The position numbers and the translations under genes were made by a program. Below the pieces are notes generated by a model. That model was not told the DNA's origin and did no database searches. It saw only the letters and a list, made by a program, of their open reading frames with translations. Source: Verrucomicrobiota bacterium (lineage in GTDB: Bacteria; Verrucomicrobiota; Verrucomicrobiia; Opitutales; Opitutaceae). From it: DNA of 64,000 nucleotides. The stretch lies in contig JACRKC010000100.1 in NCBI GenBank assembly GCA_016235555.1, positions 1 through 64,000 of the forward strand, written 5' to 3'. Below, one piece after another: positions 2,835 through 24,056 of the stretch. Position 1 is the first letter of the stretch; the number at the start of each line of letters is the position of its first letter.

Positions 2835-4421
2835 ATGACCCCCGATGCCATTCTGCTGCGCCGCTACGCCGAGGAGCAATCCGAGGAGGCCTTTGCCGAG
2901 TTCGTGCAACGGCACCTGCCGCTCGTCTATGCCGCGGCGGTCCGCCGCCTCGCGGGCGATGCGCATCGCGCGAAGGACATCGCGCAAGTCGTGTTCTGCG
3001 CCGCGGCGCGCGACGCGCGGAAGCTCGCCCGCCACGCCATGTTGACCGGCTGGCTCTACACCGCCACGCGCAACGCCGTGGTCGACACGCAGCGGGCCGA
3101 GTCGCGCCGGCGAACCCGCGAGGAGGAGGCGCACGCGCTCCAAGTCGGGTCCATCGACTCCGCGGCGGGCTTCGAGTGGACGCGTCTGCGCCCGGTGCTC
3201 GACGCCGCGCTCGACGAACTCGCCGCCGACGATCGCGAGGCCGTGCTCCTGCGCTTTTTCCAGAGCCGCACGTTTGCGGAGATCGGCGCGGCGGTGGGCG
3301 CGAGCGAGGAAGCGGCGCGCAAGCGCGTCGACCGCGCGCTCGACAAGCTGCGCGACCGGCTCGATCGCCGCGGCATCAGTTCGACCTCGGCGGCGCTCGC
3401 GGTGGCGTTGGCCGGGCAGGCGGCGGCCGCGGTGCCGGCGGGCCTGGCGGCGAGCGTGACGAGCACGGCGGTGGCGGCGGGGGGAGCGGCGGTGGGCGCG
3501 GCGACATTTCTCGGTCTCACCAAACTCCAGGCCGGCCTGGCGGCCGCGGTCGTGACCGCGGGCGCGGTGGGCTTGGTGCGGCAGCAGCAGACCCTCGCCG
3601 ATACGCGCGAGGAACTCGGCCGGCAGCAACAACGCGTCGCCGCGCTGACCGCGCAAAACGCCGCGCTCACCGCGACGCGCGCCACCGCTGACGCCGAGGC
3701 CGGGCGGCTGCGCGCCGAGCAAACCGCGCTCAAACAATCGCTCGCCGAGGCAACCGCCCGCGCGGCGGGTGCGCCGCCCGCCGTTTTGCGGCCGAAAGAC
3801 GCGGCCGCCCGCGCTCCGGCTCCGCCTCCGCCCAGCACCACGGACCGCAGCACCCAGGCACCTTCGCCGGCCCGGACGACAGCACCGCAGGCCCAACGCG
3901 ACAAATTGCGTCGTCGCTACGATCCGTTTCTGCGGCAGCACGGCATCAGCCCGGCGCAGGCGGACCGATTCGTGGAGCTGAAAATCGCGATCTATGAGGC
4001 GCAGGATGATTTGCAGGAATCGATGCGGCGGTTCGGCGCCCAAGGCGGAACGAAGGAGATTGAAGCGATCCGCAACAAACTCGTCGGACCCATGTGGGAG
4101 GAAATCCGGTCGATTCTCGGCCCCGAGGCCTACAAGGCCTACGGAGACTACGAGCGGACCTCCGCGTTTCGGTTTGGCATGGTCGAGTCCCTCGAACCGC
4201 GCTTCGCTTCGGCCAACGTCCCGCTGACGCCCGCACAAGCCGACGGCCTGGCCGGGCTATTGGCCGGCGCGATCCTCAGCCAACGCAGCCGCCCGACGGA
4301 TTTGTCCACGACCATGACGGTCGATTGGGATGTCGTGTTGCCCAAAGCCGGCGACCTCCTCGCCCCCGCGCAGCTGGCCGTGCTGCGCGAGTTCGCCGCG
4401 AGAACCGCCGCGGGGCGGTAG
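2835..4421 (+). CDS. ECF-type sigma-70 factor fused to a membrane/coiled-coil C-terminal domain
   Basis: 528 residues; the ATG at 2835 is chosen because sigma region 2 starts immediately after it. Residues about 1-95 carry region 2 (RRYAEEQSEEAFAEFVQRH, AKDIAQVVF, LTGWLYTATRNAVVD). Residues about 115-175 carry region 4 (LDELAADDREAVLLRFF, FAEIGAAVGASEEAARKRV), the promoter -35 reader. Unlike a normal ECF factor of about 190 residues, the chain continues. It has an Ala/Gly/Val-rich hydrophobic stretch (about 195-255) able to cross the membrane, a Gln/Ala coiled coil (about 255-310), a Pro/Ala linker and a folded domain of about 180 residues ending in LAPAQLAVLREFAART. This suggests that sensing and anti-sigma-like control are built into one polypeptide. 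Family membership is clear. The membrane topology and the signal are inferred. Confidence 0.85.
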   Translation: MTPDAILLRRYAEEQSEEAFAEFVQRHLPLVYAAAVRRLAGDAHRAKDIAQVVFCAAARDARKLARHAMLTGWLYTATRNAVVDTQRAESRRRTREEEAHALQVGSIDSAAGFEWTRLRPVLDAALDELAADDREAVLLRFFQSRTFAEIGAAVGASEEAARKRVDRALDKLRDRLDRRGISSTSAALAVALAGQAAAAVPAGLAASVTSTAVAAGGAAVGAATFLGLTKLQAGLAAAVVTAGAVGLVRQQQTLADTREELGRQQQRVAALTAQNAALTATRATADAEAGRLRAEQTALKQSLAEATARAAGAPPAVLRPKDAAARAPAPPPPSTTDRSTQAPSPARTTAPQAQRDKLRRRYDPFLRQHGISPAQADRFVELKIAIYEAQDDLQESMRRFGAQGGTKEIEAIRNKLVGPMWEEIRSILGPEAYKAYGDYERTSAFRFGMVESLEPRFASANVPLTPAQADGLAGLLAGAILSQRSRPTDLSTTMTVDWDVVLPKAGDLLAPAQLAVLREFAARTAAGR

Positions 4422-7769: not shown

Positions 7770-7855
7770 GGTGACAGAAGGCAATCTGTCACAGGTCAAG
7801 CCATGACCCTCTCGGCTCCTCTCTCTCGGCTCCTCATGACCCTCTCGGCTCCTCA
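7770..7855 (+). repeat. Head-and-tail element, locus A
   Basis: The head has a hairpin (GTGACAG...CTGTCAC) followed by AGGTCAAGCCATGACC, itself an inverted repeat (GGTCA/TGACC). The tail is three near-identical 14-bp units starting CTCTCGGCTCCTC at 7809, 7823 and 7842, with a TGACC spacer before the third. The same head is found at 8408-8487 (inverted), 9451-9553 and 23990-24056, each with a different tail unit. The tail points toward the 3' end of the immunity-like gene. Confidence 0.85.
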
Positions 7856-7883
7856 GAACAACGGCATCGTGGCAACGACTCGG

Positions 7884-8348
7884 CTACTTCTTCGCCGCGC
7901 CCAATGGCCCTTCGTGGACTTGCGCCATGACCATGTTGACGAACGCCTCCGCCACCTCGTCCACCGTCGCCGTCGCCGGCAGCTTCTGCGTGCGCTCCTT
8001 GTCGTCCACCACGCCACCGGACTTGTTTAACATCGTCGGCGAGAGTGTCCAACCGTGCGCGTCGCGCATCATGCGCCAATAGCGGATTCTCTCGGCAAAC
8101 TGTTTTCCCGACCGAGCGTCGACGATCTTCATCGCATCAGCCATCGGACTTTCGTCGTCGTGGGCTGCGGGCGGATTACCTGCGGCGATGCGTTCCTTGA
8201 TGAGGGTAATCAATTCGTTTCTGTCACCGAGACCCAAACTGGCCACCGGTCTTATCGTGCGAATCGGGCCATGCGGAATAATTCCGTGGGTCGGAACGAA
8301 TATCCGATTTCCCGCCGCAATCACTGCTGAGTAAAACGTATCGCTCAT
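7884..8348 (-). CDS. Immunity-like hypothetical protein of a displaced Rhs toxin module
   Basis: 154 residues; start ATG at 8348 (an in-frame TTG lies two codons upstream). No signal peptide or membrane segment is seen. The protein is mixed alpha/beta (SDTFYSAVIAAGNRIFVPTH, GLGDRNELITLIKERIAAG, AEAFVNMVMAQVHEG). I do not recognise the family. The key observation is upstream: the frame ending at 8345 encodes an Rhs-toxin-like C-terminus (NAAMQAAKDKGVQLIITPWP), and its TGA overlaps this ATG (ATGA). That tight coupling is typical of polymorphic toxin-immunity pairs. The DNA here is visibly less GC-rich than the flanking Rhs core. I therefore infer a cytoplasmic immunity protein for a toxin whose gene has been cut by the repeat at 8408-8487. 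Confidence 0.6.
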   Translation of the reverse strand: MSDTFYSAVIAAGNRIFVPTHGIIPHGPIRTIRPVASLGLGDRNELITLIKERIAAGNPPAAHDDESPMADAMKIVDARSGKQFAERIRYWRMMRDAHGWTLSPTMLNKSGGVVDDKERTQKLPATATVDEVAEAFVNMVMAQVHEGPLGAAKK

Positions 8349-8410
8349 GGCCAAGGAGTGATGATCAGTTGAACGCCTTTGTCTTTGGCCGCCTGCATCG
8401 CCGCGTTAAG
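8345..8410 (-). pseudogene. C-terminal remnant of an Rhs-type toxin
   Basis: On the minus strand the codons immediately before the immunity-like gene read WLLNAAMQAAKDKG then VQLIITPWP and a TGA. Upstream the frame runs straight into the repeated tail of element B, which translates as duplicated DPLWLF and DPLWLL, so the rest of the toxin is gone. Only about 22 residues survive. Calling it a toxin rests on its position and on the ATGA coupling, not on a recognised catalytic motif. Confidence 0.5.
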
Positions 8411-8487
8411 GAGCCAAAGAGGGTCAAAGGAGCCAAAGAGAAAGAGCCAGAGGGGGTCAGGGCTTGACCTGTGACAACGGCGCTGTC
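8408..8487 (-). repeat. Head-and-tail element, locus B, overlapping the 3' end of the RAYT gene
   Basis: Read on the minus strand, the head TTGTCACAGGTCAAGCCCTG spans the last codons and the TGA of the RAYT gene. It is followed by three tail units (CTCTGGCTCTTT, CTCTTTGGCTCCTT, a TGACC spacer, CTCTTTGGCTCCTT). The layout (two units, TGACC, third unit) is identical to locus A, although the unit sequence differs. The tail leads into the toxin remnant. Confidence 0.85.
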
Positions 8488-9437
8488 GCGAGGCGCCAGC
8501 GCCGCACGAACTGGCTCACGCTGGCCGGTTGCCCCATGCCGAGTCGCGCGGCCAGCCAGCCGTTGGAGACGGCCGTGCCCGCTTTCATCGCCGCCGCCAG
8601 GCGCACCTTGGCCGGCGCGGACTTCCGGGCCGGCAGCGCGGCGAGGTCCACGCGGAGGCGCTTCGCCGTGGCCACCAGCTGCTCCTCCCATGCCTCTTCG
8701 CGCCACTGCCGGTGCGCGTCCGGCCCGCCACCGAGCAACGCGATCCGGCCGGCGAGGTCGGCCCCCGGCGCCAGTTTCCTTTGGAGGTCCGCCTTGAATT
8801 CCTTCGTCCCGACCGCCCAGCCGCGGCTCAACCGGCCGAACTTCTCGTCGCGGCGCCGCGCATCCTCCTCGGCCAGCACGCCGAGGTAATCGACGTAACG
8901 GCGCCAGCCGGCCCGCGTGTCCCGCAGCCCGCCGCACTCAGCGAGCACCGTGTCGGCCACCAGGCCGGCCGGGCGCTTGGGCTGCGACCACCACCACAGG
9001 CTGCTCCAGCGAAACTCCGCCACCCGCGCCGCCGGCACCACGCGCGCCCGCACCGGGTTGAGGTGGATGTAGTGCGCCACCTGCGCGAGGGCGTGACCCG
9101 GCTCGACGTGCAACGCCTTGTAGCGCCCTTGGAACGGCCGGCCCGTTTCGCCGCGGAACCGGTTGAACCGCCGCGCCCACGTCCCCTGCAGCCATTGCAT
9201 GCCGTCGCTCAGGTTCGGCGCCGGTGTCTCCAGCGCGAGGTGAAAGTGGTTGCGCATGATGACGAAGGCGTGGAGCCGCCACCCAAACCGCGCGCACGCC
9301 TCGAACAGGCAGGTCTCGAACGACTCCGCCGCGCCCTTCGGGGCGAACAGATCGCGCCGGTAGTTGCCGCGGTTGATGACGTGGTAACAGGCGTCGGGGA
9401 ACTCGAGCCGGAGCTTGCGGGGCATCGTCGCAGGCAA
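8457..9437 (-). CDS. REP-associated tyrosine transposase (RAYT, Y1 HUH family)
   Basis: 326 residues; an alternative ATG four codons in (MPRKLRLEF) is the commoner family start. The Y1 transposase core is clear: RLEFPDACYHVINRGNYR, the HUH motif HFH at residues 64-66 (MRNHFHLALETP), RFNRFRGETGRPFQGRYKA, and the catalytic Tyr region YIHLNPVRA (Tyr about 123). A C-terminal region of about 170 residues with a helix-turn-helix-like end (GWLAARLGMGQPASVSQFVR) follows, as in long RAYTs. RAYTs cut single-stranded DNA at hairpins next to short guide sequences and spread REP elements. This gene lies between two inverted copies of the head-and-tail element (8408-8487 and 9451-9553), heads facing it. 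Its last codons, ending LSQVKP, are encoded by the head of copy B. It looks intact and is the likely mobiliser of the element. Confidence 0.9.
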   Translation of the reverse strand: MPATMPRKLRLEFPDACYHVINRGNYRRDLFAPKGAAESFETCLFEACARFGWRLHAFVIMRNHFHLALETPAPNLSDGMQWLQGTWARRFNRFRGETGRPFQGRYKALHVEPGHALAQVAHYIHLNPVRARVVPAARVAEFRWSSLWWWSQPKRPAGLVADTVLAECGGLRDTRAGWRRYVDYLGVLAEEDARRRDEKFGRLSRGWAVGTKEFKADLQRKLAPGADLAGRIALLGGGPDAHRQWREEAWEEQLVATAKRLRVDLAALPARKSAPAKVRLAAAMKAGTAVSNGWLAARLGMGQPASVSQFVRRWRLATAPLSQVKP

Positions 9438-9450
9438 GCCGGCCGACCTC

Positions 9451-9553
9451 TTTTGTCAACAGTCAAGCCATGACCCTCTCTGGCGCTTTTGACCCTCTCT
9501 GGCGCTCTCTCTGGCGCTATCTCTCTGGCGCTAGGACCCTCTCTGGCGCTTTT
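9451..9553 (+). repeat. Head-and-tail element, locus C, upstream of the RAYT gene
   Basis: The head TTTGTCAACAGTCAAGCC then ATGACC is followed by five tail units built on CTCTCTGGCGCT. Some units are preceded by TGACC or GGACC. The tail runs into the 3' end of the small membrane-protein gene and supplies its last codons (KKRQRGS and stop). With locus B it brackets the RAYT gene as an inverted pair. Confidence 0.85.
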
Positions 9554-9848
9554 TCGGCCCTTCCTCGACAGCAGCGTCGGCCTGGGTCTTCGTGTTTCGA
9601 AGTTTTCGAGCAAAACGACCCACCAGAAGCCCTAAAGCCGAACCGCCAAAACACGCAGCGAAGGCGATCGCACCAACTTCAATGGGCGTTACCGCGCCAT
9701 GTGGAACATCGAGCCACAATGCTGCGATCACCGCAGTCAGCAGCGACAGAGCAAAGGAAACACTCCAAGCTAACGCGATGCGGTGAGCGGCAAAACCAGC
9801 CCATGCACTCACAGCGCACACAACCAAAATCAGAGCTAACGAGAGCAT
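9531..9848 (-). CDS. Small membrane protein, candidate immunity to the Rhs toxin
   Basis: 105 residues; the ATG at 9848 starts 2 bp after the Rhs stop codon, so the two are translationally linked. Three hydrophobic segments are visible: LALILVVCAVSAWAGFA (about 3-20), LAWSVSFALSLLTAVIAALW (about 26-46) and IGAIAF-like VGAIAFAACFGGSALGLLVG (about 58-78). A basic cytoplasmic tail follows. Position directly behind the Rhs toxin tip, small size and lower GC are what polymorphic-toxin immunity genes show, and a membrane immunity protein would suit a toxin acting at the membrane or in the periplasm. The 3' end is formed by the tail of element C, so the native C-terminus may have been altered. No family was recognised. 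Confidence 0.6.
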   Translation of the reverse strand: MLSLALILVVCAVSAWAGFAAHRIALAWSVSFALSLLTAVIAALWLDVPHGAVTPIEVGAIAFAACFGGSALGLLVGRFARKLRNTKTQADAAVEEGPKKRQRGS

Positions 9849-9850
9849 GG

Positions 9851-12800
9851 CTATTTTCGGTAAGGTGGCGCACTGCCGCCGACTGTTGCATTCGGGGCCA
9901 GCGGGAAAAGGCGATTTCTCACATACGATTCCAGAGCCGCTTTGTCGTTATCCTTGCACAGAATGCGACCGAGGTAATCTCGCGTCATCTCGATCGCCTG
10001 CTTGAACTCTGGAGAGTCGACCGCTTTATCGGCCACCTTGTGCTTCGTTCCAGACTGCTCGTTGTAGTTCTGGAATTGAGTAATTTGCCACTGGTCATTC
10101 CGCACAATGTGAGAGCGCGAGAAGGAATCTTGCAGCGTGTGGAGTGATATTCCGATGAGTCGGCCCGCTTCCCTACACTTACCCTGCTTCACGAGCGCGG
10201 TTGCTTGCGAAACCACGGTGTCGAACAAACTCACTAACCTATCCTGAAGCTGTTGCGGAGTCAGCTCGATGCTGTGCATCCCATGGAAAACCTGCAAATC
10301 TCCAAAGTGGCTCCGATAGGTCTCGTCGTTCTTATACCGCTCCCTCGCGTAATTGGGCATCGCCTTGGCATCGACATACACACCCACAAGCCAAACTTTT
10401 CCACCGGGGATATCGGGCTGTAATACACCCTCGTGTAATCCGTCCGAGAGCTCTTGGAAGTTGCAGCAATTACAATCCAGCCCTTTGAGCGCATTATCGA
10501 GGATGCGAGTGTGATTCCCGAGCTGCCACAATCCGAACGGGTCCACGAAGTTGATCGGATCGTTTCCAACCATGGCGTAGAGGTTCGTTCCACCGCGTTC
10601 ACCCAAGGGGTCCCTGGATAGCCAACGTCCGGCGCTTGAGGAATAAGAACGATAGCCGTAGTAAAGGTGCCCAGTTTCAAAGTCTGTGAACTTTGTCGAA
10701 AAGCCGAAAGGATTGGCGGAGGAGAAGAGATCTTCGATGGCTTTGAGTTCGCCGAAGGCATTGTAGTCGTAAGACGCAGTAGATGTGCCGTTGCTGGCGC
10801 TCGTCAGTGCCGTGAGATTGCCGTTTCCATCGAACGAAGCGAGGTGGCTCGCTGCAGTTGCCGAGTTGTGGTCGGTGACTGTCAGCAGGCCGCCGATGCC
10901 GCCGGCGCCTTGGGCGGTGCCGCTGAGGTCGCGGCCCCAGAGGTAGGTGCGGATCGGCGCGTTGGCGGCGAGGGCGTTGAGCTCGGCGAGCATCAGCCAG
11001 CCGTCGTAAAGGAAGTGGGTGTGGTAGGCGAGCGTCCAGGTGGTGCCGTTGCCGGTCGAAACTTTCTTCGAGATGCGGCGGCTTTGGCTGTCGTAGGCGA
11101 ATTCGAGCTTTTGGCGCGGGAGGCCGGCGGCGGCGGCTTGCCCGGTGGTTTCGAGGGCGATGAGGCGGTTCTCGGCGTCCCAGGTGTAGTGCCAGCGGGC
11201 GTCGTCGGTGAGGTTGCCGTCGGGGTCGTGGTGGAAGGTCTCCGGAGTGCGGGAGAGGAAGGCGGTTTTCGATGTTTCGGCCACGGCGTCCTCGGCGTTG
11301 GGGCCGGCGAGATTTTTGACGCCGGTGATTTTGAGCTGCGCGGTCTGAGCGGCCGTCGTGTTGTCGAGGGTGATTTGTTTGTAGAAAGTCTCGCCCTGGC
11401 GGGTGGTGGCTTGGGGCGCGCCGTTGTTGACGGCGACGGTCACGGTAGCCGTCGCGGCGGCCGCGCCGAGGACGTCGATGGCGCCGGGCACGGTGCGCTG
11501 GGTGTATTGGTTGAGCGAATTGGCGGTGTAGGTGGCGACTTGGGTGTTGGTGGTCGCCGTCTGGCGGTTGCCGATGTCGTCGAAGGTCCAGGCATAGTCG
11601 CCGCCGAGCGCGGCCGTGTTGTCGGCGAGGAGTTTTTTCCCTGACGTGACCTGGCCGAGCGAGTCGTAGCCATAGCTCCAGGAGGAATTATCCTCGCGCG
11701 TGACGCGGGTGCGCTGGTTGGCGGTGTTGTAGGTGTAGGCGTAGTTGAGCGCCGGGGACGTGCCGCCGGGCGTGTGGTTGATTGTGGTGAGGCGATTCAA
11801 GCGGTCGTAACTCTTCGTCGAGGTGAGGCGGGTGGTCGCGTCGTTTCTGAAGGTGACCGAGGCGACGAGCGGGGAGTTGGGTTCGTAGGCGTAGGTTGCG
11901 GTGTTGGGTCCCGCAGTGACCGTCTGCAGGCGGGACGCGGAGTCGTAGCAGTAGGTGACCGCGGGAAGAGCGGTCGCGGTCAGGCTGCTGGCGCGGAACA
12001 GCGAGTCGTAGCCCCGTCCAACGGCGATCCCGGCGAGAGCGCCGCTGCTATGGGTTTCAGCGGTCACGAGGGAGGTCAGACCTTGGTAGGTATAGACGCA
12101 CGAGCCGGTGCCGTCGCTTTTTGTGATGACGCGGCCGAGCCGGTCGTAGGTGAACGTCGCACCGGGGGTTGAGTCGGAGTAGCTGGCGCTCGAGGTTTCG
12201 CCGGCGGCGGTATAGCTGTAGGTGGTGACGATGCCGCGGGCCCATGTGCGTGTGAGCAGGCGGCCGGAGGGTTGGTAGGTGTAGGAAGGGCCGGTCCCAT
12301 CGGCATAGCGTTTGTTGAGCAGAAACCCGCGCAGGGGATCGTAATTCCAGGTGGTCACGGCACGGCCGGAGTCGGCGGCGAAGCTTTGCCAGGTGGTAAG
12401 TGTCTTCACGCGGCCTTGCGGGTCGTAGGCGTATTCCACCGGGTAAGTGCGGGCGCCCCAGGTGCGTTTGATGGCGCCGGTGGGGTAGTAGGTCGTCTGC
12501 ACGACGCCACCGTCGGGATGCGTGACGGATGCCACGCGGCCTGCGGTGTCGTAGGCGTAGGTGGTGATTTGAGCATCGTAGCCGGGCCCGGTGCGGGTGG
12601 AATCCGGGTCGGGCGTGGTGATCGTGCGGAGCTGGTCGTCGGCGAAGTAGGAGAAGGTGGTGGTGCCGTTGCGGGCATCGGTGCTGGATTGCACGCGGCC
12701 GTGCGAATCGTAGGCGAGCGTCGTGGCGGAGAGCTGGGAGCCGGCGGCGGTTTTCGTCACGGTCGAGGCGAGGCGATCGGCGGCGTAGGTTTGCACTGTT

Positions 12801-15800
12801 TGCACGCTGTCGGGCCCGGTGGCGGTGACGATGCGGCCGCCAGAACCATCGAAGGCGGTGACGGTCGTCGAGGTGAGGCCGTGCGCAGTCAGCCAGGCGC
12901 GCAGGCCGTCGGGCGTTTGCTCGGAGACGGAGACGGTGACGGGGGTGTCCTGATTGTCGGCGGACCAGACCTGGGTCGCGGTGCGTTGCACGGTAAAGGT
13001 GCCGGTGGCGCCGGGTTTGGCCGCGGTCGTGCGTGTGGTTCTGGTGATGCGATCCGGGCCGGCGTAGTCGATGACGTTGTTGCCGTTGAGATCGAGGGCC
13101 GTGACTTCCGGTTCGCCGAGGTTGTTGTAGGCGAAGAGCGTGGTCACGCCGTCCGGATCGGTCTGGCGGACGAGTTGGCCGGCGGCGTTGTAGAAGCTGC
13201 GGGAGGTGGCGCCGTCGGCGAAGACAACTTTCGAGGTGCGTCCCGCGAAATCGGAGTAGGTTTTCGTCCATTGCTGGGTCGAAGGCTGGCCATTCGAGTC
13301 GAGGCTCACGGGGATTTCCTTCGTATAGAGTCCGTCGCCATCGAGGGCGTAGTCGTAGCCGCGGGGCGCAGCCGCAGTGCCGTCGACGCTGAGAAGTGCG
13401 CCGCTGCGGGCGAAGATTTCCACGCGAATGCCGCCGTCGGGATTGGTGGTGGTGCGGGTCGTGCGGCCGGAGGCGGAGTCAAACGTCTCGGCAAACGTCG
13501 TGGCGCGGTTGAGCGCGTCGCGACGCGAGATCAGCCGGCCGCCGCGGTCGTAGGCGTTGGTGGTCTGGATGGTTTCCGAGTTGTCCGTGCCGATGCGGGT
13601 GATCGAGGTGACGCGGCCGTCGGCGTCGTAGCCGGTGCGGATGGTGATGCCCGCGCGGGTCACCGAGGTCTGGCGGCCCAGCAGATCGTAGCCGTAGGTT
13701 GTGACGAGGCCGGTGCGGTCGCGTTCGGAGGCGAGCCCGCAGCAGGCGTAGGTGCGGGTGACATAGGTGCCGTCGCTGTGGTCGATGCGGGTGGGGCGGC
13801 CGACGGAATCGAAGGTGGTCGCGGTCCAACTGGTGAGCGCGAGTCCGCTCGCGATATCCGTGACCGCTTCGGTGGTGGTCTGGCCCGCGGCGCTGGTGAA
13901 CGTCACGGTGCGGCGGCCGTCGACGATATCGGTGCGGGCGGCGTTCGGGAGGCCGGTCTTGATCGTCGTCGTCAGGACGCCGCCGGTCGACAGCGCGTAG
14001 CTGGTGAGGGAGGCGGTTCCGTCGGGGTTTACGATCCGCGCATAGCGGTTGGCAAACGGACCGGTCGCAAACGCGAGCGACTCGGTGACGAGATTGCCCG
14101 TCGCATCCCAAGCGGCGCCCGCGGTGGTGCACACAACGTCCGTGTAGCGTTTGCAGCTTTCGTCGCCGAGCACCACGCGCCTGGACCACTCGACGCGGTA
14201 GCGGCGGGCGGTTTCCGTGGCGAAGGTGCGTTCGCTGGTGGTCTGGAGCAGCTCGGGTTCGCCGTCGCCGTCGGCGTCGGGCAGCGGATTGTAGGCGTGG
14301 TCGGTGATGCGGAGGAGCGGTTCGTCCTGGCTGTCCGGTGGGGCGACCAGAAAGGGGCGGGTGACTCGCGCGACGCGGCCGCCGGTGGCGTAGGCGTAGC
14401 GCTCCCACGAGCCATCCGGATTGGTGCGTTGGCGAAGCTGGCGGTAGTTTGGATCAACCGTTTCGTTGCCGTCGCGACCGCGAGTGCTGTAATCGTCTTC
14501 GTAAAATTCAAACGAGGTGGTGAGCGCTGCGCCGGCGGGATCGAGCACCTCCCGGATCAGTTCTTCGCCCCACGCGAACCGGCGATAGGTGCGCGCGCGC
14601 TGGGTGACGAGCTGGCCGGTGGCGTTGCGCACGGTGGTGGTCTTGACGGTGTCGCCAGCGATGTCGGCCGTGACGGTCGATTCCTGGCGCAGACCGCCGC
14701 CCTGGCTGAAGGACCACGACGCCGTGGCCTCGTTGTAAGCAAACTCGGTGACGCGCGACAGGCCGGGCCGGGTTTCGGTGATCCGCAGGCGCTCCGTCCG
14801 GCCGGAGCTGACGTCCGGGTTTTCGATGCGATACGTCGCGAACGGCGGGCCGGTGAAGGCATGGATCTTGGTGGTGGAGTTTTGCGCCCCCACGTGTTCG
14901 GGCGCGTAGAAGCTGACTTCGTAGAGCGCAGGATCGCGCGGGACGATGTCGGCGAAGGCCTGCGGCGCCTTGACTTGGCGGAGGAGGCCGGCGGCATCCT
15001 GCACGGGTTCGATACCCGGCACGGATATCGCGGTCAGCGCCAACGCCGCCGGCGTGTAGAGCGCGGGCGTGATCTCTTCCGCATCGATCCGGAGCTGGCC
15101 GGCGGAAATCTGGCCGGCGGCCCGGCCGAGATTCATCCAGAAGTGGATGCTGTCCTGATCGCCGCCTGATCCGCCCGGATCGGGATTCGCGCAGAGCGGC
15201 TCGGCCGTGACGCTGATGATGGAGTAGATGACGTCCCGCTGGGTGAAGGGACCGAAGCCGACTTTGAAATCGTAGGTGAGCACCTGGTCGACGGAGCCGA
15301 GCTTGGCTTGGGTGAGAAACGCCTTCCGCGGTTTGCTCTCTTCGCCGGTGGCGAGCGGGGTCTCGGTGTAGCGAACCATGAGGTTGTAGTCGCCGGGACA
15401 ACAGGCCGACTGGTCAAAGCGTGCGACCACCTGGGTCCGGCTGAAGTAGAAGGTGCGTCCGATGCTGCCCGGGCCCACGAAGAAACGGTTGGTGCGATAC
15501 ACCTGGTTGCCGCGACCCCGCACCGTCAGCTCCTGCGCGATCGCGAGGTCGCTGCTGGCGCGACGCTCGGCGTCCGCCTCGGTGTCCTCGATCGACAGCG
15601 TTTCCAGATATGAGCCCTGCGCCTTGCGGCTGCCGCCGGCGACGGCCACGCAGTCCTGGCTGGCAGTGAGCGTGCGCGAGCTGACGGTCAGCAATTCCGT
15701 GACCAAGCCGGCGTAGTCGGCGGCGACGGGCGTGCCATATCCCACGATTCCAAGGGAAAACGGAAACGTGGGCGAGCGGGCCTCCACGCGCTGGCTGGTG

Positions 15801-16528
15801 TCGACGTCGATGACGAGGGTGTGACCGAGGGGATCGTCCGCATCATATTCCCGGGTGAGCTGCCAGGTGTCGCGGATCTGCCCGATGAGCTTCGAAAAAA
15901 TCTGCTGCGGCGTGCCGCCGAGCGAGGCCCCCCACGGGCGCAATTGCGGACTGAACACCCCAACCGTGAACGGCGGGTTGTGGTGAAACGGGTCGAGGTA
16001 TTTTTCGTCGCCGTTGACGAAAGTGATGTCCTCGGAGTCGCCGGCCTGACCCAGATCCACCGTGATATTCACCGCGACTTCGAATGGCGTGGTCTGGGTC
16101 ACGTCGGGCGTGACGCTCGTGGTCGCACGATAAAGGATCCTGCCATCGGATTCCGTTCGCACGGGTTCCAGCTTCGCTTCCCACGAAAAGGCCGGGCCGG
16201 GCCACGCGTTGAAGTTGGTCTCAACGTGCCCCCGATCGGTGAACACCGTGACCAGGGACGGCGGTGGACAGTTCGGATCGGACCAGGCGCCGACCGTCAT
16301 GGTGCCGGCCACTTCGCGACGGCGGAAAACCTTCGGCGGGGTCGCGGGATCGGTTGAGACGAAGGCGTCGAAGCCGATGAGCGAGGCCTCGCCTTCGAGG
16401 GACTTGAAGGTGAGATGGGCCCTGACCGGTTCCCCGGTCGCGCAGGCCGGGCCGTCGGCGACGGCGCGCAGCGCCAGCATCAAACCCAAGGCGGTGGCGG
16501 CAACGAATGCGAAGGAACGTGGCTTCAT
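9851..16528 (-). CDS. Secreted Rhs/YD-repeat polymorphic toxin
   Basis: 2,225 residues with a signal peptide (SFAFVAATALGLMLALRAVA). The N-terminal ~650 residues have no recognised domain. From about 680 to 2,000 there are dozens of YD repeats (for example TTYGYDLLGRQTSVTRAG, TTTYSYTAAGETSSASY). The core ends in the classical Rhs signature RDPLGERGGTNLYAMVGNDP followed by DPFGL. Everything after that, about 224 residues (9851-10525), is the variable toxin tip. The tip contains HTRIL, HGMH and SLHTLQDSFSRSH, a His/Asp pattern reminiscent of zinc-dependent phospholipase C/HET-C-like folds; that assignment is tentative. The tip DNA is visibly AT-richer than the core, as expected for an exchanged module. 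The gene lies 12 bp downstream of the giant Ig/RCC1 gene and 2 bp upstream of the candidate immunity gene. Confidence 0.88.
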   Translation of the reverse strand: MKPRSFAFVAATALGLMLALRAVADGPACATGEPVRAHLTFKSLEGEASLIGFDAFVSTDPATPPKVFRRREVAGTMTVGAWSDPNCPPPSLVTVFTDRGHVETNFNAWPGPAFSWEAKLEPVRTESDGRILYRATTSVTPDVTQTTPFEVAVNITVDLGQAGDSEDITFVNGDEKYLDPFHHNPPFTVGVFSPQLRPWGASLGGTPQQIFSKLIGQIRDTWQLTREYDADDPLGHTLVIDVDTSQRVEARSPTFPFSLGIVGYGTPVAADYAGLVTELLTVSSRTLTASQDCVAVAGGSRKAQGSYLETLSIEDTEADAERRASSDLAIAQELTVRGRGNQVYRTNRFFVGPGSIGRTFYFSRTQVVARFDQSACCPGDYNLMVRYTETPLATGEESKPRKAFLTQAKLGSVDQVLTYDFKVGFGPFTQRDVIYSIISVTAEPLCANPDPGGSGGDQDSIHFWMNLGRAAGQISAGQLRIDAEEITPALYTPAALALTAISVPGIEPVQDAAGLLRQVKAPQAFADIVPRDPALYEVSFYAPEHVGAQNSTTKIHAFTGPPFATYRIENPDVSSGRTERLRITETRPGLSRVTEFAYNEATASWSFSQGGGLRQESTVTADIAGDTVKTTTVRNATGQLVTQRARTYRRFAWGEELIREVLDPAGAALTTSFEFYEDDYSTRGRDGNETVDPNYRQLRQRTNPDGSWERYAYATGGRVARVTRPFLVAPPDSQDEPLLRITDHAYNPLPDADGDGEPELLQTTSERTFATETARRYRVEWSRRVVLGDESCKRYTDVVCTTAGAAWDATGNLVTESLAFATGPFANRYARIVNPDGTASLTSYALSTGGVLTTTIKTGLPNAARTDIVDGRRTVTFTSAAGQTTTEAVTDIASGLALTSWTATTFDSVGRPTRIDHSDGTYVTRTYACCGLASERDRTGLVTTYGYDLLGRQTSVTRAGITIRTGYDADGRVTSITRIGTDNSETIQTTNAYDRGGRLISRRDALNRATTFAETFDSASGRTTRTTTNPDGGIRVEIFARSGALLSVDGTAAAPRGYDYALDGDGLYTKEIPVSLDSNGQPSTQQWTKTYSDFAGRTSKVVFADGATSRSFYNAAGQLVRQTDPDGVTTLFAYNNLGEPEVTALDLNGNNVIDYAGPDRITRTTRTTAAKPGATGTFTVQRTATQVWSADNQDTPVTVSVSEQTPDGLRAWLTAHGLTSTTVTAFDGSGGRIVTATGPDSVQTVQTYAADRLASTVTKTAAGSQLSATTLAYDSHGRVQSSTDARNGTTTFSYFADDQLRTITTPDPDSTRTGPGYDAQITTYAYDTAGRVASVTHPDGGVVQTTYYPTGAIKRTWGARTYPVEYAYDPQGRVKTLTTWQSFAADSGRAVTTWNYDPLRGFLLNKRYADGTGPSYTYQPSGRLLTRTWARGIVTTYSYTAAGETSSASYSDSTPGATFTYDRLGRVITKSDGTGSCVYTYQGLTSLVTAETHSSGALAGIAVGRGYDSLFRASSLTATALPAVTYCYDSASRLQTVTAGPNTATYAYEPNSPLVASVTFRNDATTRLTSTKSYDRLNRLTTINHTPGGTSPALNYAYTYNTANQRTRVTREDNSSWSYGYDSLGQVTSGKKLLADNTAALGGDYAWTFDDIGNRQTATTNTQVATYTANSLNQYTQRTVPGAIDVLGAAAATATVTVAVNNGAPQATTRQGETFYKQITLDNTTAAQTAQLKITGVKNLAGPNAEDAVAETSKTAFLSRTPETFHHDPDGNLTDDARWHYTWDAENRLIALETTGQAAAAGLPRQKLEFAYDSQSRRISKKVSTGNGTTWTLAYHTHFLYDGWLMLAELNALAANAPIRTYLWGRDLSGTAQGAGGIGGLLTVTDHNSATAASHLASFDGNGNLTALTSASNGTSTASYDYNAFGELKAIEDLFSSANPFGFSTKFTDFETGHLYYGYRSYSSSAGRWLSRDPLGERGGTNLYAMVGNDPINFVDPFGLWQLGNHTRILDNALKGLDCNCCNFQELSDGLHEGVLQPDIPGGKVWLVGVYVDAKAMPNYARERYKNDETYRSHFGDLQVFHGMHSIELTPQQLQDRLVSLFDTVVSQATALVKQGKCREAGRLIGISLHTLQDSFSRSHIVRNDQWQITQFQNYNEQSGTKHKVADKAVDSPEFKQAIEMTRDYLGRILCKDNDKAALESYVRNRLFPLAPNATVGGSAPPYRK

Positions 16529-23990: not shown

Positions 23991-24056
23991 TGACGAGAGC
24001 AATCTGTCAACGGTCAAGACATGACCCTCTCGGCTTGCTTCTCTCGGCTTGCTTCG
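23990..24056 (+). repeat. Head-and-tail element, locus D
   Basis: GGTGACGAGAGCAATCTG then TCAACGGTCAAGACATGACC matches the head of locus A almost base for base. It is followed by two 14-bp tail units, CTCTCGGCTTGCTT, and then by a flank that starts CGACGCTCTGGCG. The tail runs into the frameshifted Rhs remnant, so this copy also truncates an Rhs-type gene. Confidence 0.82.

Follow-up and report, generated by a model that had tools for sequence, protein, structure and literature searches.

The 64,000-nucleotide (nt) stretch of a Verrucomicrobiota genome analysed here (contig JACRKC010000100.1, positions 1 to 64,000; hereafter the window) carries a TIRtron built around a TIRYT, that is, a RAYT of the TnpAREP subclass 2.1 type, whose gene lies between inverted copies of a terminal inverted repeat (TIR), and it also carries solitary copies of this TIR. 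Each of the four TIR copies (A to D) has a conserved head that ends in TGACC, followed by a tail in which a short sequence private to the locus is iterated. Across such arrays the outer edge of the repeated piece is near-constant, about 13 nt past TGACC, and its inner edge is variable, falling anywhere from just past TGACC to beyond the whole head.

Array edges were measured relative to the last base of TGACC. An automated run found arrays at 51 of 183 TIR ends, with periods of 10 to 35 nt once three chance-looking rows are set aside; the outer edge had a median of 13 nt past TGACC and lay at 11–17 in 43 of the 51, and the inner edge ranged from +8 to −24. The TIR anchors in this survey are crude, some landing on an inner TGACC, and among the 51 rows C and L025 each appear twice, the chance-looking L074, L093 and L273 are included, three multi-unit runs are read as a single edge (22, 30 and 83), and B is missing, since it escapes the test, its first unit being different. 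Without the two double counts and the three chance-looking rows, the outer edge lies at 11–17 in 39 of 46 arrays (median 13). A hand-picked set retained 33 of 45 rows (dropped were B, C, L008, L020, L074, L093, L203 at 768, four of the six L215 rows and L241), with the single-unit edge taken for L004, L037 and L077. Here the standard deviation of the outer edge is 1.95, compared with a mean of 9.6 and a minimum of 5.95 in 20,000 trials of a sliding null, and 28 of the 33 outer edges lie at 12–16, the null maximum being 18. In the same set, rho between period and inner edge is −0.70, and the relation of period to the outer edge is weak (rho 0.31, p 0.08). The base composition of 29 tails from the genome of the window points to a similar length: CYYTCGG, then a pyrimidine-rich part, with background reached after ~14–15 nt.

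The enrichment of arrays at TGACC-type TIR ends is strong. A single test, applied to ~0.96 Mb of the genome of the window that was partly chosen around heads, detected arrays at 19 of 25 flanks of TGACC heads; at GTAG REPs the figure was 1 of 28 flanks, and among random positions 304 of 20,000. The genome has other Y1 genes, L097, L099, L100 and L102 being among those flanked by GTAG-type repeats, and these therefore provide an in-genome control for iteration. In an earlier test, 20 of 28 heads had arrays, and so did 8 of 161 other TGACC sites; by reading, six of these eight are themselves within an array or follow another head. In 373 kb of background with no known head (contigs C1–C23 minus C10, C11 and C18; 0 heads in the sample), three exact tandem repeats were found, all with a period of 9–11; head tails made up 6 of the 7 exact tandem repeats in 189 kb taken around the window and around RAYTs and heads, and 10 of the 13 in 393 kb mostly chosen around heads. 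The sole exact tandem repeat of period at least 12 that the 189-kb scan found away from TGACC heads is at L100 (~5757), where a RAYT has another GTAG-type flanking repeat with a 13-nt tandem repeat inside it. At L037 (contig C3 of genome G009) the 14-nt unit CCCCTTACGAGTGA is present at least 7 times in the DNA examined.

The question of whether the tail belongs to the element or to its target was approached through unoccupied sites and through paired copies. The preliminary description had the unit copied from the insertion target, and proposed that tails be compared with empty sites. At all three usable junctions the tail is missing from the unoccupied host sequence, namely at a non-iterated copy in an integrase-like gene, an iterated copy at what is presumably the end of a dipeptidase gene, and a copy in genome G406. 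The first of these, of the second head type (see below), interrupts the integrase-like gene, the element ending 15 nt past TGACC; 15 of 19 homologous loci align to within 0–7 nt of the junction, none of the 15 extends into the tail, and eight homologous loci start exactly 15 nt past TGACC. Its tail is single copy, and 11 nt of the same tail are iterated at L020. The iterated copy, on contig C52, ends 14–15 nt past TGACC, and its right flank is identical over 82 nt to a stretch of contig C138 (the presumed dipeptidase end) from which the tail is absent. In G406 the DNA beyond the tail duplicates (401 aligned nt, 98.0%) a region that is uninterrupted 2.1 kb away and in loci of 11 other genomes; the homology begins 13–17 nt past TGACC, the sequence ahead of it differs from the tail, and by this comparison the element ends at 14 nt.

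Recent copy pairs mostly share the tail. Two G406 elements (99.9% identical frames, 2.2 kb apart) have 14 and 15 nt of tail in common, adjacent copies in G106 (99.6%) 14 nt, a pair between g24 species (99.2%) 13 nt at the end with differing flanks, and a G418 pair (99.7%, >1 Mb apart) 8 and 8 nt; in G058 one pair (97.8%) agrees over 11 nt of its 3′ tail and another (91.5%) over 9 nt of its 5′ tail. Since no host tail was found at the three junctions and recent copies share 8–15 nt, the unit is best understood as the fast-changing end of the element itself: on these comparisons, recent copies carry the tail as part of the element, and over longer times it is replaced. This terminal segment is loosely constrained and differs between the two ends of one element as well as between copies; it may originally have been captured donor flank. 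Iteration must be fast, since one of the two near-identical G406 3′ ends is iterated and the other is not. At one 3′ end in G058 a tandem duplication of 65 nt takes in transposase codons as well as head and tail. Junctions, paired copies and arrays together therefore place the element end at a similar distance in most lineages.

The flanks of A to D gave only self matches in the genome sequences searched, apart from a weak match of the left flank of D; genus g1 is represented by one genome, and the g17 relatives, ~64–67% identical over the long aligned part, are thus too distant for junction comparison. Loci L013 and L017, which have a right flank in common, were considered as two insertions that had copied one target, and this reading was dropped because a third copy of the flank, L161, lacks the tail-like part. 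In L307 of G406 (936–1336 and 3047–3444), a gene-like fragment of ~400 bp is duplicated (98%) exactly at the element end, with the junction at the 14-nt edge, as if a far longer duplication had used the same edge.

The window itself lies in a genome of 8.03 Mb in 140 contigs, and contains the following features of the TIRtron and its solitary TIRs.

7788–7808, plus strand: head A, solitary TIR, exact head match
7809–7855, plus strand: iterated terminal segment A (7809–7822, 7823–7836, TGACC 7837–7841, 7842–7855)
8408–8454, minus strand: iterated terminal segment B (8441–8454, 8427–8440, TGACC 8422–8426, 8408–8421)
8455–8475, minus strand: head B, TIR at the transposase 3′ end, GTCACAG GTCAAGC CC TGACC, containing the stop codon 8457–8459
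8457–9437, minus strand: TIRYT-type HUH (Y1) transposase, 326 amino acids (aa), Pfam Y1_Tnp
9455–9475, plus strand: head C, TIR just beyond the transposase 5′ end, pointing outward
9476–9552, plus strand: iterated terminal segment C (9476–9489, TGACC 9490–9494, 9495–9506, 9507–9520, 9521–9534, GACC 9535–9538, 9539–9552)
24006–24026, plus strand: head D, solitary TIR, exact head match
24027–24054, plus strand: iterated terminal segment D (24027–24040, 24041–24054)

Read outward from TGACC, tail A is CTCTCGGCTCCTCT, CTCTCGGCTCCTCA, TGACC, CTCTCGGCTCCTCA; tail B is CCCTCTGGCTCTTT, CTCTTTGGCTCCTT, TGACC, CTCTTTGGCTCCTT; tail C is CTCTCTGGCGCTTT, TGACC, CTCTCTGGCGCT, CTCTCTGGCGCTAT, CTCTCTGGCGCTAG, GACC, CTCTCTGGCGCTTT; and tail D is CTCTCGGCTTGCTT twice. 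The four heads ending in TGACC, each with its own private short repeat, are thus all present as first described, and so are the units and the layout common to A and B (unit, unit, TGACC, unit), except that the units within B are not identical, the first differing from the other two. The heads at the ends of the transposase gene had been said to face it, yet they point outward, with TGACC distal to the gene; likewise the units, held always to start with CTCT and to measure 14 bp, show other starts and variable lengths genome-wide. The signal in the window is the four exact head copies with their arrays and not the degenerate head pattern, which with two mismatches allowed yields 9 matches against 5.0 expected and is therefore weak.

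The transposase matches Pfam Y1_Tnp (E 1.4e-12) and scores 54.8 bits against NCBIfam REP_Tyr_transpos, under the cut-off of 80. Residues H64, H66 and Y123, the last presumably the catalytic tyrosine, are invariant across 21 aligned sequences, the window protein included. Its AlphaFold2 model has a mean predicted local distance difference test score (pLDDT) of 83.7 and a predicted template-modelling score (pTM) of 0.59; 4er8, the E. coli RAYT–REP complex, is both the best hit of the model in a fold search (E 3e-6) and the sole match in a PDB sequence search (E 7.8e-4, at E up to 0.01). In the model, residues 275–318 form a C-terminal three-helix segment (275–287, 292–299 and 304–318), but a Pfam search with E up to 10 found no helix-turn-helix (HTH) family. 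TIRtrons and TIRYTs were described by Di Nocera in 2013 (PMC3733652), and TIRYTs are probably subclass 2.1 of the TnpAREP enzymes of Quentin 2018 (PMC6006769). Members of subclass 2.1 and TIRYTs are described as long, with HTH-like C-termini and flanking TIRs, many with GGGGWSAS (PMC6006769, PMC3733652); the window enzyme, which is long and flanked by TIRs, fits this description. The gene is bounded by the inverted TIRs B and C and not by GTAG REPs, and its TGA stop codon (8457–8459) is the TGA of the TGACC of the TIR. The stop codon coincides with the TGA of the TIR in 43 of 76 transposase frames (37 with TGACC or TGACG, 6 with TGAGG; a raw count), so the TIR encodes the last residues of the protein, LSQVKP in the window. 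All TIR copies may descend from the right TIR.

Within 7884–9848 the transposase unit lies between two short reading frames and beside a 2225-aa open reading frame (9851–16528), the repeats of which we take to be RHS-like. A nearby minus-strand fragment ending in NAAMQAAKDKGVQLIITPWP (hand translation) looks as if cut off by the insertion of the unit. The GTAG-tagged repeats GTAGGTCGGGCTTTACGCCCGAC at ~25949 and ~29822 of the window form a separate family that is abundant in this genome, with 26 core matches in ~0.96 Mb.

The head of the first type, GTCAAGNCNTGACC, has 17 exact matches in the genome of the window compared with 1 for the reversed control, and A and D are among these 17, dispersed and with no transposase alongside. 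A second head type, ATTAAACATTAAAACCTGACC, has nine copies there within two mismatches, and further variants near those end in ..GAGTTAAAACCTGACC and ..AGAGTTACGACCTGACC. An automated survey collected 77 transposase frames of at least 250 aa, of which 52 had a TIR by the rule used, giving 104 ends, 20 with arrays. About half of the distinct TIRs (26 of 48) consist of two direct heptamers, 2 nt and TGACC, the criterion being two adjacent heptamers at least 5/7 identical ahead of TGACC; shuffling gave a mean of 2.4 and a maximum of 8, and other block lengths gave at most 8. By reading, heads A to D have no GTAG within or beside them and their only stem is GGTCA/TGACC; a view of the head as only a hairpin was dropped because second-type heads iterate with no long inverted repeat. 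The other strand of end B (GGGGTCAG) fits GGGGWSAS and that of end C (AGGGTCAT) does not, this motif being absent from some published TIRs as well. Two different head types are stacked in L001 (contig C10), where both have an iterated tail, and in L008 (C59), where only the second does. Heads at L005, L008/L021 and L022 (contigs C49, C59 and C92) adjoin sequences (GCCCAACACAA.. and ..GTTAGGC) that in our view resemble the attC sites of integrons.

A family tied to the RAYT was proposed at the outset, and this tie holds in broad terms. The window RAYT carries a head at both ends, and in four other genomes a head of the same consensus lies ~30 nt from a RAYT that is 65–72% identical. A RAYT match was found in 11 of the 12 other head-bearing genomes (in G024 a fragment only); the link is not strict, since G050 has two heads and no match. 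Some relative of the window RAYT exists in 224 of 383 genomes of the phylum, and first-type heads occur in 13 of 252 genomes of the family, that of the window included. Being raw counts with no null, these figures are only suggestive of heads tracking the RAYT. A scan of public genomes found first-type heads in 27 stretches, several of them inverted pairs, under labels that include Verrucomicrobia, Synergistaceae, WOR-3, Deltaproteobacteria, Omnitrophota, Gammaproteobacteria and Flavobacteriaceae. A small number of these loci also carry arrays; L077 (Omnitrophota), for example, has them at both ends, with different units. Viral contigs gave 0 matches to either head type, and relatives of the TIRYT on plasmids are remote (10 records, with coverage below 80% in each). 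Near-identical copies at different sites are found in relatives, not of the exact element of the window: in G418 at 99.7% and >1 Mb apart, and in G058 at 91.5–97.8% on three contigs.

We consider it probable that the TIRtron carries its own end, and that the TIRYT makes the arrays by nicking at a measured distance and rejoining, the catalytic steps being inferred. The TIRYT would bind the head and nick single-stranded DNA at this distance; the freed 3′-OH of the end could sometimes be joined to an upstream 5′ end on the sister or the same strand, or alternatively a 5′-truncated end fragment could be re-inserted at its own end. Each such event would add one copy of the terminal piece, and tails would drift, or be exchanged for flank taken up in a later round of cutting, which would leave each locus iterating a different sequence. 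Solitary TIR copies would presumably be scattered by the same enzyme. TnpAREP enzymes form a 5′-phosphotyrosine and a free 3′-OH, and in cleavage-and-strand-transfer assays an added 3′-OH attacks the phosphotyrosine link (PMC8266576), thus the required chemistry exists. A more specific and more tentative proposal, to which we give somewhat less than an even chance, is that TIRYTs bind the heptamer pair and TGACC, nick 13–14 nt further on nearly regardless of sequence, take the DNA of this gap along as an end that can change, and generate locus-specific minisatellites when the cut end is rejoined to upstream DNA.

Several observations weigh against this interpretation. The tails in the genome of the window are not fully arbitrary (CYYTCGG, then pyrimidine-rich), therefore a weak sequence preference may help to place the cut. 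The outer edge lies at 9–10 in 4 of the 51 arrays, the ends of G418 (at 8) and G058 (at 9–11) depart from the common distance, 132 of the 183 ends have no array by the automated test, and 25 of the 77 transposase frames gave no TIR by the rule used. One pair of G058 5′ ends has only 2 nt in common, the 3′ tail of a third G058 copy scores 0, its first base being different, and the L234 pair (93.5%) shares 4 and 4 nt (after subtraction of five bases of TGACG, the script having anchored earlier) and the L235 pair (77%) 3 and 1. Such unshared tails mean that tails are replaceable and that some could be host-derived. Moreover, in both G106 and G406 the copies are no more than ~2 kb apart, and part of the tail sharing there may therefore be local duplication.

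The original proposal, in which insertion copies the unit from the target and amplifies it, could explain why units are locus-specific, why the outer units of the two-type array L013 resemble the adjoining flank TCGGCTGGCTT, and why older copy pairs lack common tails. Nonetheless, three junctions, including an iterated one, have no tail in the unoccupied host sequence, the most recent copy pairs have the same tail, and L161 aligns with the flank of L013 and L017 only from just after the tail-like part; because of the three junctions we reject target copying as a general rule, and regard it as quite improbable overall. Passive replication slippage at the head could duplicate adjoining DNA with no transposase, and perfect short tandem repeats are its usual product. 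Yet the outer edge is near-constant although the period spans 10–35 nt, which is evidence against pure slippage, GTAG REPs, with a longer inverted repeat as their core, have one array at 28 flanks in the same genome, and second-type heads such as ATTAAACATTAAAACCTGACC iterate with no long inverted repeat seen in them; we thus find slippage unlikely.

It could also be that full or truncated copies prefer to insert beside existing ends and pile up there. Two unit types occur within arrays L008, L013, L015 and L017, two head types are stacked in L001 and L008, and published REPIN clusters arose through insertion within or beside REPINs (PMC3116915). However, units are mostly identical within an array and different elsewhere, so most copies are local, which argues against pure nested insertion from elsewhere and leaves this explanation doubtful. 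An assembly artefact is hardly credible: although the assembly comprises 140 contigs, with several TIR copies close to contig ends, arrays are also present in the one- or two-contig assemblies G001, G002 and G406. Nicking at a measured distance with rejoining is the explanation that we favour, with slippage and nested insertion as its rivals.

The literature already describes TIRtrons, dispersed TIRs and flank-containing tandem REPIN clusters; what is new is the fixed outer edge. Like published TIRtrons, the element of the window combines a long Y1 transposase with flanking TIRs that are not GTAG REPs; many TIRs of TIRtrons contain GGGGWSAS (TGACCCC on the other strand), and they too are found dispersed as single, dimeric and grouped copies (PMC3733652). 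The heptamer pair, the 8–15 nt extension and the fixed-edge iteration are not mentioned in the passages on TIRtrons that were compared. The article on subclass 2.1 reports no REP-like sequence beside the genes, and suggests identity with TIRYTs, leaving this to further analysis (PMC6006769). The preliminary description also stated that known REP and REPIN elements show no such iterations, which does not hold, as tandem REPIN clusters that include flanks were published for P. fluorescens SBW25 (Bertels and Rainey 2011, PMC3116915). According to the legend of Fig. S7, the unit there comprises a flank f1, the REPIN and a shorter flank f2. The two cases are alike in that the tandem repeats include flank; they differ in that the whole REPIN is repeated in SBW25 and usually the last 10–35 nt of the end are repeated here, and a fixed outer edge is not stated in the text compared (PMC3116915). 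With GTAG REPs and REPINs and their RAYTs our elements have in common an HUH Y1 transposase, dispersed short elements and, in some genomes, inverted pairs, but their heads lack GTAG and a long hairpin, and iteration is rare at the GTAG REPs in the genome of the window (1 of 28 flanks). The transposase fold is that of IS200/IS605 members (IS608, ISDra2), for which cleavage at a set distance outside a recognised hairpin is a precedent. In that family cut sites are chosen by pairing with a guide tetranucleotide (PMC8266576), whereas the putative cut region here is loosely constrained in sequence. Among titles and the openings of abstracts, no description of fixed-edge iteration at TIRYT ends was found, which does not prove its absence from print.

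The fixed outer edge predicts where a TIRYT cuts, and a substrate made of the heptamer pair, TGACC and any 14 nt would serve as a test. If cutting proceeds by ruler, it would be unlike the guide-tetranucleotide choice of IS608 and unlike the CT and CA sites chosen by GTAG in REPtrons. Some of the short tandem repeats of bacterial genomes may originate at TIRYT ends, and if the ruler reading is true, the TIRYT would be an HUH transposase that makes tandem repeats.

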